From NCBI GenBank assembly GCA_016933965.1, contig JAFGTS010000037.1, forward strand, positions 1 to 64,000: a stretch of DNA of 64,000 nt, read 5' to 3'. Below, piece after piece: positions 55,631 through 63,215 of this stretch. The notes below the pieces were generated by a model that did no database searches, was not told the origin of the DNA, and was given only the letters and a program-made list of their open reading frames with translations. Each line of letters starts with the position of its first letter. Position 1 is the stretch's first letter. The DNA comes from Deltaproteobacteria bacterium. Lineage in GTDB: Bacteria > Desulfobacterota > Syntrophia > Syntrophales > UBA2210. The translations under genes and the position numbers were made by a program.

Positions 55631-57241
55631 TCACGGGGTTTTACCTTCTTCGGGTTCCGCCGTTTCGAGGCGGGTGATCTCGTCGACGATGAATATGCCG
55701 GCTTTTTCGCTGTGGGTTTCCTTGTTGCTTGCCATCATTTCAAGCCGCGCCGACGGCATGAGCTCGACCATTCTCTCCATCTCCCTGATTCCGTGCAGCT
55801 TGTCGGCCGTCGCGCCGACGATGATGACCGGCGCGGTTATATGAGGCAGCTTGTCCCAGAGGCTGTATGTACTGAGTGCCAGGGCGTTCGCCTGGAGTCT
55901 TCGCGGTTCCGCCGCGTCCATGGTCCCTTCGTACTTCTTGACCTGTTCCGGTTCCTTTTTCTTGTCGAGCCTTACATTCCGAAGGTACCACTTGATGGCC
56001 GGTTTCGCCGCGCCGTATAGGGATGCCGGGGCGTAGCGGATCAGGGGTATTCCCCAGGAAGGGAAGGGAAATGCCGGATTGGGGGCGATCATGACGGCCA
56101 GCCGGCACTGCCTGAGCCCCTGGCTGAGGTAATCAAGCACGACGGTGGAGCCCAGTGAACTGCCGACGAAATAGAAAGGCTGTTCTTCCGGGACGAAACG
56201 TTCCAGTACCGCGTGTATGTCGGCCGTAATGCGGGACACGGAAAAATCGACGTCACATATCTTTTTCGATTCCGGGAGGCGGGCACTGATCTTTTCCCGT
56301 GTCTCCACATAGAGGGTTCGAAAGGAGGGCGTCAGTTTCTTCAAGACCCCCGTCCAGCCTGTTATGAGCGATATCCAGCCGGCCACGAAGACAACCACCG
56401 GCCGGCCCGGCTCGTGTCGGGAGGGGATGAATTCCGTCACCCGAATGGCTGCCCCGTCGGAGAGAGGAACGAAGTGCTCAACCACCGTCGTGTCCGGTTC
56501 CGTAAACGTGCTGTAGTCACCGGTGGTTTCACCGGTACCGTGGAGGGTGGCGGCCCAGGAGGAAGAGGGCTCCGCTTCCATTTCAGCGACCCAGAGGGGG
56601 TGTCGTTCCCGGGCATAGTCGAGTTTCACGGCGCCCGTGAAGATGCCCCGGAGCATGGGACGGTTGGGCTTGATGACAATGGCCGCAATATGGGCGAAAA
56701 AGGCCAGGAGGAAGAGGATGAAGAAGACATTATGTACCCAGGTCGCCCAGAGTGTCATGGTGATGGACATCTGCGGGTCGTAGATATTTTTGTAGGTCTT
56801 GATGAGCCCGGACAAGATGAGCATGGCGATGATGAACGCCATCCCCGCATAGGCGAGGCGCTGTTCCGGAAGATATTTGTGAAAGGGCGGTTCCTTTCCC
56901 AGGCCGAAAAAGGTCTTGATGACCTTGGCCGACTCGGTCAGATCACCCTTCCGGGGTATCATGCCCCGATCACCGCGCAGGCCATGGTAGACGACATGAA
57001 AGAGACAGGCCGCCGTGAAGACGACGGCCGCCGCGTAGTGGATCGTAAGCGATGTTATGAAATCGCCCGACCAGGAAAAACCGGGGATCTCGGTTACGTA
57101 ATATCGTTTTGCGATCGGCAGTTCGAAGATCCCCGTCAGCGTCAGGAGAAGGCCTGAGATCGCGATGGACCAGTGCTCCAGAAGTTCCAGAAGATTGTGC
57201 CGCACCGCCAGGCCTTTGTCCGCAATGATCCTGTCAGACAT
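55631..57241 (-). CDS. cytochrome b561/FdnI-like membrane domain fused to alpha/beta hydrolase
   Basis: A 536-residue fusion. Residues about 1-215 carry four membrane helices with haem-ligand histidines, resembling the gamma (cytochrome b) subunit of formate dehydrogenase N: HWSIAISGLLLTLTGI, IHYAAAVVFTAACLFHVVYH, then AYAGMAFIIAMLILSG and WVHNVFFILFLLAFFAHI. Residues about 260-535 form an alpha/beta hydrolase with VVVFVAGWISL (oxyanion strand), the nucleophile elbow GSSLGS, and a late His in NKETHSEKAG. The hydrolase would sit on the cytoplasmic side if the usual topology holds. Start 57241 follows GGGGGAG; the HybA-like gene ends 4 bases upstream. I know of no characterised protein with this arrangement. 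Confidence 0.8.
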   Translation of the reverse strand: MSDRIIADKGLAVRHNLLELLEHWSIAISGLLLTLTGIFELPIAKRYYVTEIPGFSWSGDFITSLTIHYAAAVVFTAACLFHVVYHGLRGDRGMIPRKGDLTESAKVIKTFFGLGKEPPFHKYLPEQRLAYAGMAFIIAMLILSGLIKTYKNIYDPQMSITMTLWATWVHNVFFILFLLAFFAHIAAIVIKPNRPMLRGIFTGAVKLDYARERHPLWVAEMEAEPSSSWAATLHGTGETTGDYSTFTEPDTTVVEHFVPLSDGAAIRVTEFIPSRHEPGRPVVVFVAGWISLITGWTGVLKKLTPSFRTLYVETREKISARLPESKKICDVDFSVSRITADIHAVLERFVPEEQPFYFVGSSLGSTVVLDYLSQGLRQCRLAVMIAPNPAFPFPSWGIPLIRYAPASLYGAAKPAIKWYLRNVRLDKKKEPEQVKKYEGTMDAAEPRRLQANALALSTYSLWDKLPHITAPVIIVGATADKLHGIREMERMVELMPSARLEMMASNKETHSEKAGIFIVDEITRLETAEPEEGKTP

Positions 57242-57245
57242 GTTC

Positions 57246-58244
57246 TCACTCCCCCTTCCTCTTATCGCGTCCATCGGCCCGCGGCACGAGGGCGCCCGCG
57301 AGACCAGCGATGATGCCTATCAGCGGTGCTCCGATCAACGCGAACTTTCCGGCGAGGTCCGTCTCTTCCATACGGCGCGTTGCCGGACCGAGATGCGGTA
57401 GTCCGGGTCCTTTCGGGATCACCTCGTTCAGTTTCTCAAAGGGGACGGGAGAGACGTAGAGGGTCGCCGTTCCCCCGTTCTCCCGCTCTCCGTAAATATA
57501 ACCGTCCATTGCCGCGGCTCGCCTCCTCGCCTCCTGGTATATCTGGTCCCGCTCTCCAATGAGCAGGGCGCCCCGGGGGCAGGCGGCGATACAGCCAGGT
57601 GTTTCACCACGGGCCAGCAGATCATGACAGAGGTCGCATTTGAAGAGGACACCGTTTCCCGCAAGAGTGGGAAGCAGGTGAAGGTAGATACCCACTCCCG
57701 ATTGGCGTTGCGGGATGGACCAGGGACAGACGGTGCGACACTTCGCACCACCTAAGCAGAGGTGCCTGTTTATCACGACGGCGCCGTCCTCGTACTTGTG
57801 GTTGGCGGAAAAGGGACAGATCGTGGCACAGGCTGGATTATCGCAGTGCATGCACCGGCGGGGGATAAAAAGTGTGCGCCGTTGCCCCTTCCAGGTTACC
57901 TCCGCCTTTTCCACAAAGATCAGATTGTAGGGTGTCAGCCGGTCTGTGACGTCCTTTTTCTGCGACCAGTCTTCAATGATGCGCCGCGGGTACGGTACGG
58001 GGATCGGGTTCACCGGTTCGGGCATCCGCGCCAGGTTGATGTCCCGGCATGCCGCCACGCAGGCCGGCAGTTGCCGGTCCCGGCATCCGTCGCAGAGGGA
58101 AAGGTCGATAATTGTGGTGTATCCCCTCGTTCCGGCGGCACAGGTGCCGCGGGGCAGGGCAATTCCCGCGAGAGACGTCAGGCCGGCCGTCACCGCGAGG
58201 AACGACCGACGTGTTATGCCGGTATTTTCGTGCTGGTCCATCAC
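57246..58244 (-). CDS. HybA/FdnH-like 4Fe-4S electron-transfer subunit, Tat-exported
   Basis: A 332-residue periplasmic Fe-S subunit. The twin-arginine signal is in ITRRSFLAV (about residues 10-18). Cysteine groups for four 4Fe-4S clusters follow: CDGCRDRQLPACVAAC, CMHCDNPACATIC, CLGGAKCRTVC, and CDLCHDLLARGETPGC plus C-x3-C. A C-terminal membrane anchor lies at about 298-318. This is the beta-subunit type of formate dehydrogenase N, hydrogenase 2 and similar complexes. The following gene supplies a gamma-like cytochrome b, but no molybdenum catalytic subunit is encoded here. The 193-base gap upstream (58245-58437) holds no gene. Confidence 0.88.
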   Translation of the reverse strand: MMDQHENTGITRRSFLAVTAGLTSLAGIALPRGTCAAGTRGYTTIIDLSLCDGCRDRQLPACVAACRDINLARMPEPVNPIPVPYPRRIIEDWSQKKDVTDRLTPYNLIFVEKAEVTWKGQRRTLFIPRRCMHCDNPACATICPFSANHKYEDGAVVINRHLCLGGAKCRTVCPWSIPQRQSGVGIYLHLLPTLAGNGVLFKCDLCHDLLARGETPGCIAACPRGALLIGERDQIYQEARRRAAAMDGYIYGERENGGTATLYVSPVPFEKLNEVIPKGPGLPHLGPATRRMEETDLAGKFALIGAPLIGIIAGLAGALVPRADGRDKRKGE

Positions 58245-58437: not shown

Positions 58438-60345
58438 TCACAGAAACAACAAGGACCACATGATGATAACGGCCAGGAACAGGCCGAGAATCAGACTGGC
58501 CAGCCCGAAGGCTGCGGCGGCAAGCTTGGTGAATATCCCCGGATGTCCCCGTTTGAGTTCCTCCAGCTTTCCCTCGGCGACCAGTTTTTCATAGTGTTCC
58601 CGCTTTTCCTCATACAGTTCATGCAGGCTGAGCCGTCCCGTGAAGATGGTGCGATCCATGGGGAACTTTTTCGGGATCAGGTGAGTATTGAAGAAATGCA
58701 CCGTGAATATGAACAGGGCTGCCAGAAGGGCTTCCTCGGAGTGAAGCAGGGCCGCGACGTTGAGCACCCATCCAGGGAAGAGATAGGAGGTCCATTCAGG
58801 GACCATGAGAAATATTCCCGAACCGCCGATGATCGCCATACCCCAGAAGACGGCGAGGAAGTCGAATTTCTCCCAGTATGTCCACCGGTCGAACTTTGGT
58901 TGTTCTCCCCGGTCAAAGAACCACTTGAACATGCCCTTCATGTCCTGCAAGTCCTTTTTGTTGAAGAAGAGGGATTCGGCACTGAAAAGGCGCGTCAGCC
59001 ATCCCCGCGTCCTCTCCTGTTTCGGGAAGAGGTAGCGCAGGGTGCGTGCCAGGATGTAGAAAAAGAGAACGAAAAGCACTACCGCCGCGGTTCGGTGAAA
59101 TATTCCCGCCAGGGAAACACCGCCCCAGATATCAATAAAGATCCGTGCCCAGGGAGCGTCATGATATTTCAGCGGGAATCCCGTCGCGACAAGCGTCAGG
59201 AAGGAGATCACCAGCAGAATATGGATCAGGATGTCCTTTCGTGAGAACCTCTCGATGGATTGCAGGCTTTCCGTGTCGGACATGGGAAGTTTCGGTTTGA
59301 TGCCCATTTTTTCCATGTAATGTTTGTCCCAGTAAGTTTTGCGCCACCACAGGAAGGTGTGTATCCAGAAAAAGATGAATGTCACCGTCAGCAGCCCGAC
59401 CATGAAGACGTTGGTCCAGTAAAGCGCGGGGTATCGCTCCCGGTTGCTGAAATCGGGATGGGCCTGGTACCGGACGAATCGCGGATGAAACCCTGTGTGA
59501 CATTTTCCGCAGTTGTTCACCAGGTTGTCGGGATTGATCGTCGATGCGGGATCTTCCTTGGGAAGAATGTTGTGCGATGTATGGCAGTCCGCGCACCCGG
59601 CGACACGTGTCGGATGTCCGATATCCTGAACCTTTCCGTGATATGTTCTGCGGTACGCCGCGACGGTCGACAGGGAAAGGCAGTTCCGCGCCATCATTTC
59701 CCGGTCATCGTGACACCGGATACAGGTCAGGGTATAAAATTCCCGCGCCTCGGCGGGATATTCCTCCTGGGATGTGTGATACACCCGGGTGCTGTGCAGT
59801 CCGTGGCAGTCGGAGCAGGTCGCTGCGTCCTCGTTTCCCTCCGCCACGGCGATCCCGTGACCCGAATGAGCGTATTCCTCGTTGGCATGACATTCCGTGC
59901 ATGTATCGAGGACGGCCTTTTTCAATGATGTCTCTCTGGGGGTGACGGCGTGAATGTCCCGGTGACAATCGTAACACTGAAAATCCTGATACAGGTAATG
60001 ATAGTTATGGATGTATTCCTCCGCCACGGCGCCGTGGCAGGCCCCGCAGGCCGTGAGAGAGGGCTTTGTCTCGCCGTTCATGTGACGTTCCATGTTATCA
60101 ATGTTGCCGTGACAACCCGTGCATCCCTGAGGCGCGTGAACTGAAGCGGGATAGGCCGTCCGGTACAGGTGATCGTCATGACAGGAGAGGCAGTCCACAC
60201 AGGTCGCGGCGGTCCCCTCGGCGGCAGGGTACGGCCTGTCCCCGGAGGCTGCGGACAATGGGGGGGAAAGTATCACACAAACCGTTACAGCGGCAAGAAG
60301 ACCGTGAAGTATCCATGCTCTTACCGAAACCGCGCCGTCACCCAT
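58438..60345 (-). CDS. nonahaem cytochrome c fused to membrane cytochrome b
   Basis: A 635-residue protein. After a signal peptide (about 1-34), nine CxxCH haem sites lie at Cys 52, 75, 100, 124, 149, 177, 208, 251 and 279, giving a periplasmic nonahaem domain. Membrane helices begin at about 312 (NVFMVGLLTVTFIFFWIHTF). A second set (about 370-600) has paired histidines (DILIHILLVISF, FHRTAAVVLFVLFF, LHSEEALLAALFIFTVHFF), forming a cytochrome b561-like domain, and the last helix is near the C-terminus. It probably moves electrons between quinones and periplasmic cytochromes. AGGAGG precedes the ATG, and the rhodanese stop abuts its start. Confidence 0.88.
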   Translation of the reverse strand: MGDGAVSVRAWILHGLLAAVTVCVILSPPLSAASGDRPYPAAEGTAATCVDCLSCHDDHLYRTAYPASVHAPQGCTGCHGNIDNMERHMNGETKPSLTACGACHGAVAEEYIHNYHYLYQDFQCYDCHRDIHAVTPRETSLKKAVLDTCTECHANEEYAHSGHGIAVAEGNEDAATCSDCHGLHSTRVYHTSQEEYPAEAREFYTLTCIRCHDDREMMARNCLSLSTVAAYRRTYHGKVQDIGHPTRVAGCADCHTSHNILPKEDPASTINPDNLVNNCGKCHTGFHPRFVRYQAHPDFSNRERYPALYWTNVFMVGLLTVTFIFFWIHTFLWWRKTYWDKHYMEKMGIKPKLPMSDTESLQSIERFSRKDILIHILLVISFLTLVATGFPLKYHDAPWARIFIDIWGGVSLAGIFHRTAAVVLFVLFFYILARTLRYLFPKQERTRGWLTRLFSAESLFFNKKDLQDMKGMFKWFFDRGEQPKFDRWTYWEKFDFLAVFWGMAIIGGSGIFLMVPEWTSYLFPGWVLNVAALLHSEEALLAALFIFTVHFFNTHLIPKKFPMDRTIFTGRLSLHELYEEKREHYEKLVAEGKLEELKRGHPGIFTKLAAAAFGLASLILGLFLAVIIMWSLLFL

Positions 60346-61110
60346 CTATTTCCTCCTCTTCATGAAGGATCGCCAGTCCTTCATCCCGCCGAAAAGCCGC
60401 TGTATGTCGACCAGTCCCCGTTCGTACAGGTAACACGCGGCGAGAAAGGACCGATGGCCCTCTTCGTCAACCACGACGATCTTTCTGTTCATGGGCAGTT
60501 CCCGGCAGGCATCCTCAAGTTCGTCAAAGGGAATGTTGACCGCTCCCGGAACATGCTCCCTCTCGAAGAGGTCCCCGGTCCTGATATCGAGGACCAGGAT
60601 GTTCTGTTTCTCATCGATCAGACGGCTGAGGACTTTCGGTTTTATCGATGCTATTCCTTTTCGGGGAATGCGGCGTTCCGATTCAACGGCATAGCCCGCT
60701 TCCTTCCAGGCGGGAAGGCCGCCGTCAAGGATGAAAACGTTCCGGTACCCGAGACCGCGGGCTTTGTCGGCGGCGTGAATGCTCCGGTGACAGCCGGTGC
60801 TGGCGCAGTAAACTATGATGGGCCGATCCCGGTTTTCGATCAGGGCCGGGGCCGTTTTCTCAAATTCCGGACAGGCGATGCAGAGAGACCCGGGGATCCT
60901 GTGGTCCCGGCATTCGATGGCGCTCATGGTATTGACGAACAGGGTGTCGTCCCGTTCATCCATCATGCGATGCGCTTCACCCGGTGTTATCACCGGCGGT
61001 CCCGTGTCGACGGCCCCTCCGGCAAGAGCGGTTCCCGCGACGATCCACAGCACCGGAAGAAGGCACCACCACCGGCACGTCCTTCTATTTTTTGATGTCG
61101 GTGATCTCAT
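60346..61110 (-). CDS. exported tandem rhodanese protein
   Basis: A 254-residue protein with an N-terminal signal peptide (hydrophobic WWCLLPVLWIVAGTALA) and two rhodanese domains. The first (about 45-140) has the active cysteine in VYCASTGCHRS. The second (about 150-250) reads VVVDEEGHRSF at the same place, so its catalytic cysteine is replaced by Asp and it is probably structural. Rhodaneses carry sulfane sulfur as persulfide. Position between the octahaem cytochrome gene (26-base overlap) and the nonahaem cytochrome-b fusion suggests delivery or binding of sulfur species in the periplasm. ATG 61110 with AGAGGTG is preferred over a TTG at 61131. Confidence 0.85.
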   Translation of the reverse strand: MRSPTSKNRRTCRWWCLLPVLWIVAGTALAGGAVDTGPPVITPGEAHRMMDERDDTLFVNTMSAIECRDHRIPGSLCIACPEFEKTAPALIENRDRPIIVYCASTGCHRSIHAADKARGLGYRNVFILDGGLPAWKEAGYAVESERRIPRKGIASIKPKVLSRLIDEKQNILVLDIRTGDLFEREHVPGAVNIPFDELEDACRELPMNRKIVVVDEEGHRSFLAACYLYERGLVDIQRLFGGMKDWRSFMKRRK

Positions 61111-63106
61111 CGGGTACGGGCACCTCTTCAAATCCCCAGTGGTACATCTGCGGTTCCGCGTTCGGCTCCCTGGGTGTCGGGTAATCCTGCGTCAGAAAAC
61201 GTCCCGGATTGCTGACGATCATTTTTGTGAAAAACACAGATGTGTCTGAGTGACAGTCATAGCATCCCCTGGGTTTTCCTTTTGACCCGTAAGTCATCCG
61301 TTTCTCGACAGGGACGATGTTGTGATGGACGGGGAAGTTGTGGGGGTGAGTGGTGAACGGGTCGTCATAGGAAACAACGACCCCGTCCTTCAGCTCATAT
61401 ATCCTGTCGGACACGAAAACCACGTTGGAAAATCCCATTTCCGTCAGCGCTTCGATCATGGCCTTGATCGTATCATCGGTGGCTATGGTGGGGCGTTTTA
61501 CCGCGTTTCCGTTCACGTCCCTGACGGCGGCGAGGGTGGGTTCGGGAATGCCGTCATAGGCCTTTTTCACGTATTTCAGTATGATGGGCCTGACCTCCAT
61601 CATATCCGTTTTTTCACCGAACCACTGGGCGACCTTGGAGACGACGGGAATATACTGTTCGCCGAGACCGTTCCGGGCATCGTACCGGGTTATCCAGGGA
61701 GTCCAGGGTTCCGGGGCCAGAATGCCGAAATCGTCACTCCAGGTGATGGTTTCCAGGGTTGCCGCCGTGTACCAGACCTGCTTTCCCATGGCCATGTCAA
61801 GCAGGTACCCCGAGAGGGCAGGCTGCCTCGTGGAGTGGCAGTTTGCACAGCTTATCATGTCGAAATGGAACATGGCGCCGGGAAATTTCTCTTGGTGAAC
61901 CGCCGAGGGGTTCTTGGCCTTTTCCGGCATGCCCGGACGTGTCGGCCGGTATTTCCCCTCCAGGTGGCATGCCGCGCAGGTCTTCATTCCCATGCCGTCG
62001 AGATCGTTACGGACGCTCCCCAGGGGATGCCAGCCCTTGGCTATCTGGTGTTCCAGCCGCTCTTTCCCGCTTGTTCCCACGAGACCGTGGCAGTCGGTAC
62101 ATTGAAATCCCGCCTTGACATGGGCGTCGAATTCCGGTTTGTGAACCCAGCCGACCTTTTTCTCGTCGGGGCCTTTGTGACATTGGAGACAGTTCTTTGT
62201 CGCGACCGTCTTCGATATGATGCTTCCGTTGAGCCGGCCGGATCGGTCAAAGATATTCCGGTCTTCCCAGTGATAGGAAACGATCGGACGGTCCGAAAAA
62301 TTCCAGGTTCCCACCATGAAATCCTTTGAACCCGGCACTGCGTCGGGGTCCTTGTACGTGAAAATGGCGCCCTCGATCTTCCCGAGGCCGGCGCCCGCTG
62401 TGGCCGCCCACCGGTAATTCCTGGCGTTTATCTGCTGATTCCGGGCGCCGAAGCTGTATGTTTTCGTATGACAGAGAAGGCAGTCTCCCTCGATGACGCC
62501 GCTTTCCTTGAAATGGCTCTTCCCGTCAGGGCTCAGATTGGATGAGTAATCCCCGTCAAGGGGGTTGACGGACCTCCGTTCTCCCTCGACAAGATTCATT
62601 GAGTAATCGGCGGTTCCGTTCCATTTCCTGCCGTATTCCATGGAGCCGCCGCCGGGATGACACCAGCCGCAGGACGGCGATTTTACCTTTTTGGCGGGGT
62701 TCAGTTTCCCATACCCGCCGATCCAGTCATAGGTGGTCAGATCGATCTGTTTCGGGTCATCGTTGATCTTGCCGGCGACACGGCCGGACCTGCTCGCCGG
62801 CGGTCACCACTTGCCGAACATGCCCGGTGACAGGATCCACGGCTGCCGGGGGTTGTAAGAGTCGCTCATTTCATCGAATCCCTGCTGAAAGTGAAACCCC
62901 GAGGTGATGGTTGAATAGGGATGACATCCGCCGCAGGTCCTGCGCGGACTGTAAGGATCACCGTCGTTCCGTTCAGGGGTGATGATCTCTCCGTGTTCGT
63001 TCTTCAGCCGTACATCACGGTGTTTCCAGACACCGGCGTATGCATAGGATAAGAAGCAGACGATGATAACGGCGGCAACTGTTCCAAGTACCAACTTCGG
63101 TTTCAT
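61085..63106 (-). CDS. octahaem cytochrome c, probable selenoprotein (in-frame TGA, codon 101)
   Basis: Read through one TGA (62804-62806), the frame encodes 673 residues. A signal peptide (about 1-24, ending AYA) is followed by eight CxxCH haem sites with first cysteines at 58, 146, 209, 306, 336, 377, 420 and 615. The residue encoded by TGA lies between haems 1 and 2, in GKW-U-PPASRS. Upstream of it is the only signal peptide and start site; downstream the frame stays open without a new ribosome site, and the CGWCH haem motif lies before the next ATG (62641). A hairpin follows the TGA. I therefore annotate one gene with selenocysteine at 101. A nonsense mutation or sequencing error (Trp or Cys codon) remains possible. 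Function unknown; sulfur or metal reduction is plausible by context. Confidence 0.72.
62771..62801 (-). promoter_or_regulatory. candidate bacterial SECIS hairpin
   Basis: On the coding strand, GCCGGCGA (62801-62794) pairs perfectly with TCGCCGGC (62778-62771), starting two bases after the TGA. The 15-base loop begins GCAGGTC, the heptamer found in the SelB-binding loop of the E. coli fdhF SECIS, and can form a short inner stem (GG/CC). The apical loop lies about 15-16 bases from the TGA, near the lower limit known for bacterial elements. Confidence 0.55.
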
Positions 63107-63187
63107 GTCGGCCTCCTGTCGGCAGCGTCAGCCGAATGCTGGTGGTATGAGACGGTAAACGGTTGCTTGATCGAGTCGTATAGCAAA

Positions 63188-63215
63188 AATATACGGACTT
63201 CGGCCTGTAAGTCAA
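63188..63215 (-). promoter_or_regulatory. candidate promoter of the cytochrome cluster
   Basis: On the minus strand, TTGACT (63215-63210) and TATATT (63193-63188) are 16 bases apart, each five of six consensus bases. Transcription would begin near 63181, about 75 bases before the octahaem cytochrome start at 63106, whose ATG is preceded by AGGAGG. No other signal is visible in 63107-63278. Confidence 0.65.

Follow-up and report, generated by a model that had tools for sequence, protein, structure and literature searches.

Gene Content and the In-Frame TGA

The window, by which we mean the whole stretch of 64,000 nucleotides that was analyzed, carries on its minus strand a gene for an octaheme cytochrome c with a predicted selenocysteine (Sec) (Table 1). 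The TGA at codon 101 was the sole interruption of a frame that is otherwise open from end to end, and the CXXCH motifs (n = 8) were located at residues 58, 146, 209, 306, 336, 377, 420, and 615, which places one heme before the TGA and seven after it. Both observations agree with the initial annotation, which had described a single TGA splitting a continuous frame between heme 1 and hemes 2–8. No in-frame ATG, GTG, or TTG was found between the TGA and heme 2; the first possible start was the ATG of codon 156, past the CGWCH motif, as had also been described. A second gene with a start of its own was rejected, since no start codon lies ahead of heme 2. Ordinary gene calling splits the genes of this clade at the UGA.

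The neighboring genes, which lie downstream, suggest a quinol-linked electron supply and sulfur chemistry. The order octaheme cytochrome, rhodanese, cytochrome c/b was also found in the relatives L003, L004, L011, and L012. The fusion of a b561-type membrane domain with an alpha/beta-hydrolase domain in the window (55631–57274) is an unusual combination.

Table 1. Coordinates of the features at the locus, given as window positions.
Feature	Position	Strand	Remarks
Octaheme cytochrome gene with predicted Sec	61085..63106	minus	673 codons/aa, signal peptide, 8 CXXCH
In-frame TGA, codon 101, very likely read as selenocysteine	62804..62806	minus	TGA also in L003 and 14 distant genes; Cys in L004
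Heme 1 motif CGGCH, residues 58–62	62921..62935	minus
Heme 2 motif CGWCH, residues 146–150, proposed catalytic heme	62657..62671	minus	Colinear with 1SP3 heme 2
Pro103	62798..62800	minus	In 15/15 Sec proteins, absent from every non-Sec homolog compared
Asp314, opposite the acidic residue at OTR Asp150 in the alignment	62165..62167	minus	In every Sec member
Lys317, aligned with OTR Lys153 (heme 2 ligand)	62156..62158	minus	Lys in 15/15 Sec, 5/27 non-Sec
Candidate bSECIS hairpin	62772..62787	minus	Homolog of the stem that covaries among distant Sec genes
Alternative longer hairpin, same site	62771..62801	minus	MFE −21.3 kcal/mol, z −2.6
Ribosome-binding site AGGAGG, ahead of ATG 63106	63112..63117	minus
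Promoter-like TTGACT-16-TATATT	63188..63215	minus	Consensus match only
Two-domain rhodanese with Cys only in the first domain; N-terminus signal-like	60346..61131	minus	Overlaps end of cytochrome gene
Fusion of a multiheme cytochrome c with a cytochrome b561-type membrane domain	58438..60345	minus
Fe-S ferredoxin-type protein (HmcB/HybA/DmsB-like)	57246..58244	minus
Cytochrome b561-type protein, C-terminal alpha/beta-hydrolase domain	55631..57274	minus

Conservation of Codon 101

Homologs were compared at codon 101, where the initial annotation had expected Cys or TGA in other genomes if the residue were selenocysteine, and both were found. Eleven relatives were taken from a species-genome collection. 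L003, from an independently assembled genome and with 70% identity to the window protein, contained TGA at the aligned codon. L004 (57% identity) contained Cys opposite Sec101 in an ungapped reading (GKGCAPAS vs. GKWUPPAS); the MAFFT alignment inserted a gap there and shifted the Cys by one column. Most homologs of the same order had Leu, Ser, Phe, Gln, or Gly at this position, and L004 was the only one with Cys.

Across the phylum, 395 genomes were searched with a profile; 54 gave matches, and 24 of these 54 had a match with one internal TGA. The TGA lay between hemes 1 and 2 in all 14 of the distant Sec genes that were read, within the motif G(K/R)(W/F)U(P/T/S)P, so that a U-x-P motif is common to the window protein and 14 divergent octaheme cytochromes of the phylum. 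Within the family, the in-frame stop was always TGA, and homologs were single chains. Some distant Sec members carried a C-terminal membrane cytochrome b domain fused on, and L067 and L070 were 15-heme fusions of an N-terminal Sec octaheme half and a C-terminal half resembling octaheme tetrathionate reductase (OTR), with L070 scoring 112 bits to TIGR04315. Several non-Sec family members lacked the heme 2 motif and were seven-heme relatives.

When the window gene was compared with L003, the stretch past the TGA had a dN/dS of 0.138; before the TGA, dN was low (0.137) with synonymous sites saturated. These rates point to purifying selection to either side of the TGA. If the TGA were an error of sequencing, or a recent nonsense mutation in a decaying gene, this would fit the lack of Cys or Sec at this position in most homologs of the same order. 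The TGA is nevertheless more than chance, because the same codon is TGA in an independently assembled genome, the same motif recurs in 14 remote genes, and selection downstream is purifying (dN/dS of 0.14). Error or pseudogene status was rejected given this conservation and the low dN/dS, and we regard its probability as negligible.

Selenocysteine Machinery and Stop Codon Usage

TGA was the stop codon of 22 of the 37 large ORFs in the window; it is therefore not generally reassigned, and stop-codon reassignment was rejected. The window's own assembly contained selA, selB (above the curated cut-off), and selD, itself with one TGA, together with a tRNA-Sec with anticodon UCA that scored 56.9 bits (gathering threshold 47) and whose 3′ end was cut by the contig end. 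The machinery that the initial annotation had proposed looking for is thus present in this genome, and selA, selB, selD, and tRNA-Sec were all found in the L003 genome as well. As a separate observation, the genomes of two relatives, at L060 (7918–9997) and L061 (6015 onwards), contained a second tRNA-Sec(UCA), immediately followed by a divergent second selB, besides the main copies.

Alternatively, the UGA could be a true stop, or could be translated as some other amino acid, so that two products arise. Selenium incorporation is a prediction from sequence, and a product ending at the UGA would be 100 aa long. However, no start codon is available ahead of heme 2, homologs are single chains, the genome holds the full Sec machinery, and TGA is the only in-frame stop used in the family, all of which make this alternative very improbable.

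Candidate SECIS Hairpin

Distant Sec genes contained a stem with the loop AGUU 3′ of the TGA. Over 15 Sec genes, 93% of the stem cells were paired, and double-changed stem cells numbered 18 compared to 6.1 expected in shuffles, with none of 500 shuffles reaching 18; slid controls gave much lower covariation. Where Leu occupies the loop position, its codon was TTG in 14 of 14 such Sec genes, a rare codon that accounts for 3–24% of all Leu in these genes; since the sequences are related, these are not 14 independent events. The window stem, CCGGC/GCCGG, is as in the distant genes, while its loop is a variant, CGUGUC, rather than AGUU.

A covariance model was built from 13 distant sequences alone, with the window excluded. 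Over the 64 kb window, the model scored highest precisely at this TGA (21.3 bits, E 0.0015; 12.0 for the next match), and among 22 loci it ranked the L003 site first (14.1 bits, E 0.26); coding conservation adds to these scores because the hairpin overlaps conserved coding sequence. An Rfam scan at the site gave no match to a SECIS family, and the L003 hairpin folded no better than shuffled sequence (z −0.2). The hairpin anticipated after the TGA was therefore recovered through family-level covariation and the model match, with modest support from the single sequence and weak support from L003.

Given the conserved TGA, the Cys of L004, purifying selection, the ordinary use of TGA as a stop, the machinery, and the covarying hairpin, the UGA of codon 101 is very likely decoded as selenocysteine, and we hold this with high confidence. 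Homologs, machinery, and hairpin here all support what the initial annotation had proposed for this codon.

Distribution and Evolution of the Selenocysteine

A tree built without the trait columns contained two changes of Sec status, by a method blind to gain versus loss, and ancestral Sec with two losses would be the simplest reading. The window gene and L003 retain Sec, and the earliest branch among non-Sec relatives is L004, with its Cys. In another clade, the non-Sec homolog L084 kept a SECIS-like hairpin (L084:2431–2465, GCCGGUUGGC), which is possibly a relic of lost Sec; such hairpins in non-Sec genes fit Sec loss.

The selenoprotein clade is new and phylum-wide. Neither the window protein nor any tested Sec relative scored above the cut-off of an NCBIfam model, and a literature search, partial in coverage, found no description of the clade. 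A widespread selenoprotein clade that current family models leave unnamed is thereby added. Natural controls are available in its series from Sec to Cys to loss, along which heme 2 and its Lys decay.

Fold and Candidate Active Site

An AlphaFold (AF2) model of the window protein had a pLDDT of 88 and a pTM of 0.87, with low confidence around residues 80–110. Foldseek gave a single significant match in the PDB, the octaheme tetrathionate reductase 1SP3 of Shewanella (E 6.6e-6), and the VIA comparison to 1SP3 covered 325 residues (Z 10.9, rmsd 4.6, 18% identity). Among the matches listed by VIA-align, no multiheme chain other than 1SP3 appeared, a result that excludes nothing. PDB searches by protein sequence and by profiles returned no full-length match, and OTR was found by the fold search only.

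Sec proteins were set apart most clearly by the columns U101, P103, D314, and K317. In an hhalign comparison with OTR-family proteins (98.9%), K317 fell opposite OTR Lys153 and D314 opposite the acidic residue at Asp150; MAFFT likewise aligned K317 with Lys153. In OTR, the second heme takes part in catalysis and has a conserved Lys as ligand (PMC11024163). Lys and heme 2 were also kept in some non-Sec homologs, and with just two changes of Sec status across the tree, the association of Lys with Sec is not statistically independent. Sec101 lies 39 residues past the heme 1 His and OTR Cys64 lies 38 past. Neither MAFFT nor hhalign placed the two opposite each other; they share the same inter-heme loop, where the model is weak.

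Heme 2 with Lys317, Asp314, and Sec101 is the best active-site candidate because of the OTR match, the Lys at the catalytic heme, and the losses of heme 2 in non-Sec members. By this analysis, the protein probably has an OTR-like active site that includes Sec. The initial annotation had suggested that Sec stands beside a heme as a ligand or nucleophile; the OTR fold and the accompanying Lys and Asp make this more specific, and the contact itself is what we infer from them.

Sec could instead be real but structural or heme-protecting, the protein being an electron-transfer cytochrome. Many close homologs do without Sec, the seven-heme relatives have lost heme 2, and the OTR relative MmcA, a seven-heme protein in which heme 2 and its Lys are lost, is an electron conduit (PMC11024163). 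Against a non-catalytic Sec, the residue is accompanied by Pro103, Asp314, and Lys317, the last two at the position of the OTR catalytic heme, and its replacement by Leu, Ser, or Gln fits loss of function better than a passive role. We consider the non-catalytic alternative unlikely, at odds well above those of an error or a true stop.

Proposed Mechanism

The best overall explanation, to which we assign a probability of roughly 0.7, is that Sec is inserted at codon 101 by SelB and tRNA-Sec with the hairpin, in an exported octaheme reductase of the OTR fold with Sec at heme 2. SelB and tRNA-Sec would decode codon 101 through the hairpin just 3′ of the UGA, and the product would be an exported octaheme cytochrome c. 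By analogy with OTR, Sec101, in the loop between hemes 1 and 2, would sit beside the catalytic heme 2, of which Lys317 may be the distal ligand with Asp314 nearby. Electrons from quinol would pass through the neighboring cytochrome b/c protein into the heme chain, and Sec with the Lys-ligated heme might cleave a chalcogen or other oxidized substrate at an S–S, S–O, Se–O, or N–O bond. The adjoining rhodanese could then handle a sulfane-sulfur product. That the substrate is a chalcogen compound is a tentative suggestion. It is conceivable, at somewhat less than even odds, that these proteins form a separate, phylum-wide family of Sec octaheme reductases with selenium at a Lys-ligated heme, acting as axial partner or attacking nucleophile; Sec would be used in it almost without Cys counterparts, and searches for Cys/Sec pairs would tend to miss the family. 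The little-explored pairing of selenocysteine with a catalytic c-type heme becomes testable here.

Comparison with Known Multiheme Cytochromes

OTR (Shewanella oneidensis, 1SP3, TIGR04315) resembles the window protein in its eight hemes and overall fold, in the aligned Lys and acidic residue after heme 4, and in having Cys64, like Sec101, between hemes 1 and 2. The window protein is 18% identical to OTR and about 200 residues longer, with 45 residues from Sec to heme 2 compared to 10 from the OTR Cys. Membership in TIGR04315 was rejected at a score of 15.4 bits against a curated cut-off of 375.

The OTR family has selenoproteins of its own, among them WP_331457571, annotated as such in GenBank (PMC13188914). 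As in the window protein, their Sec lies between hemes 1 and 2 of an octaheme cytochrome of the same phylum; however, by curated score they are a separate family, and their Sec motif, at the 1SP3 Cys64 position, is NNFU (or NNLU, NSFU). The OTR family thus has NNF(C/U) where the window protein has W/F-U-x-P. Many OTR-family proteins of the phylum contained a TGA (L108, L112, L113, and others), exactly at the Cys64 position in those read. The window genome itself holds a TIGR04315 gene (573 bits) with an in-frame TGA in NNLUVTPQSNW (L118:2176–2178), so it probably has two Sec octaheme cytochromes. The initial annotation knew of no characterized Sec octaheme enzyme, which still seems true, although Sec cytochromes are known from their sequences, namely the OTR-family entry and ExtKL.

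MmcA of Methanosarcina (TIGR04314) is also related to OTR, and TIGR04314 matched distant Sec members weakly; unlike the present clade, MmcA has no reported Sec.

ExtKL (NF040886), a selenoprotein cytochrome of Geobacter, has been implicated in the reduction of selenite (PMC5877670, PMC1914089). Like the window protein, it is a multiheme c-type cytochrome with one Sec, a Pro following in the Sec motif, and a rhodanese gene in its cluster. In contrast to the window protein, it has about 450 aa and five hemes, and its Sec comes after the hemes in GHxIPDGUPxPNR. Identity with ExtKL was rejected, as NF040886 did not match the window protein at E 0.01 and the Sec motif differs; the NF040886 search of the window genome also gave no match. 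In a different genome (G182), the immediate neighbor of an ExtKL selenoprotein gene is a member of the present family, a Sec octaheme gene fused to cytochrome b (L098:7689–11910).
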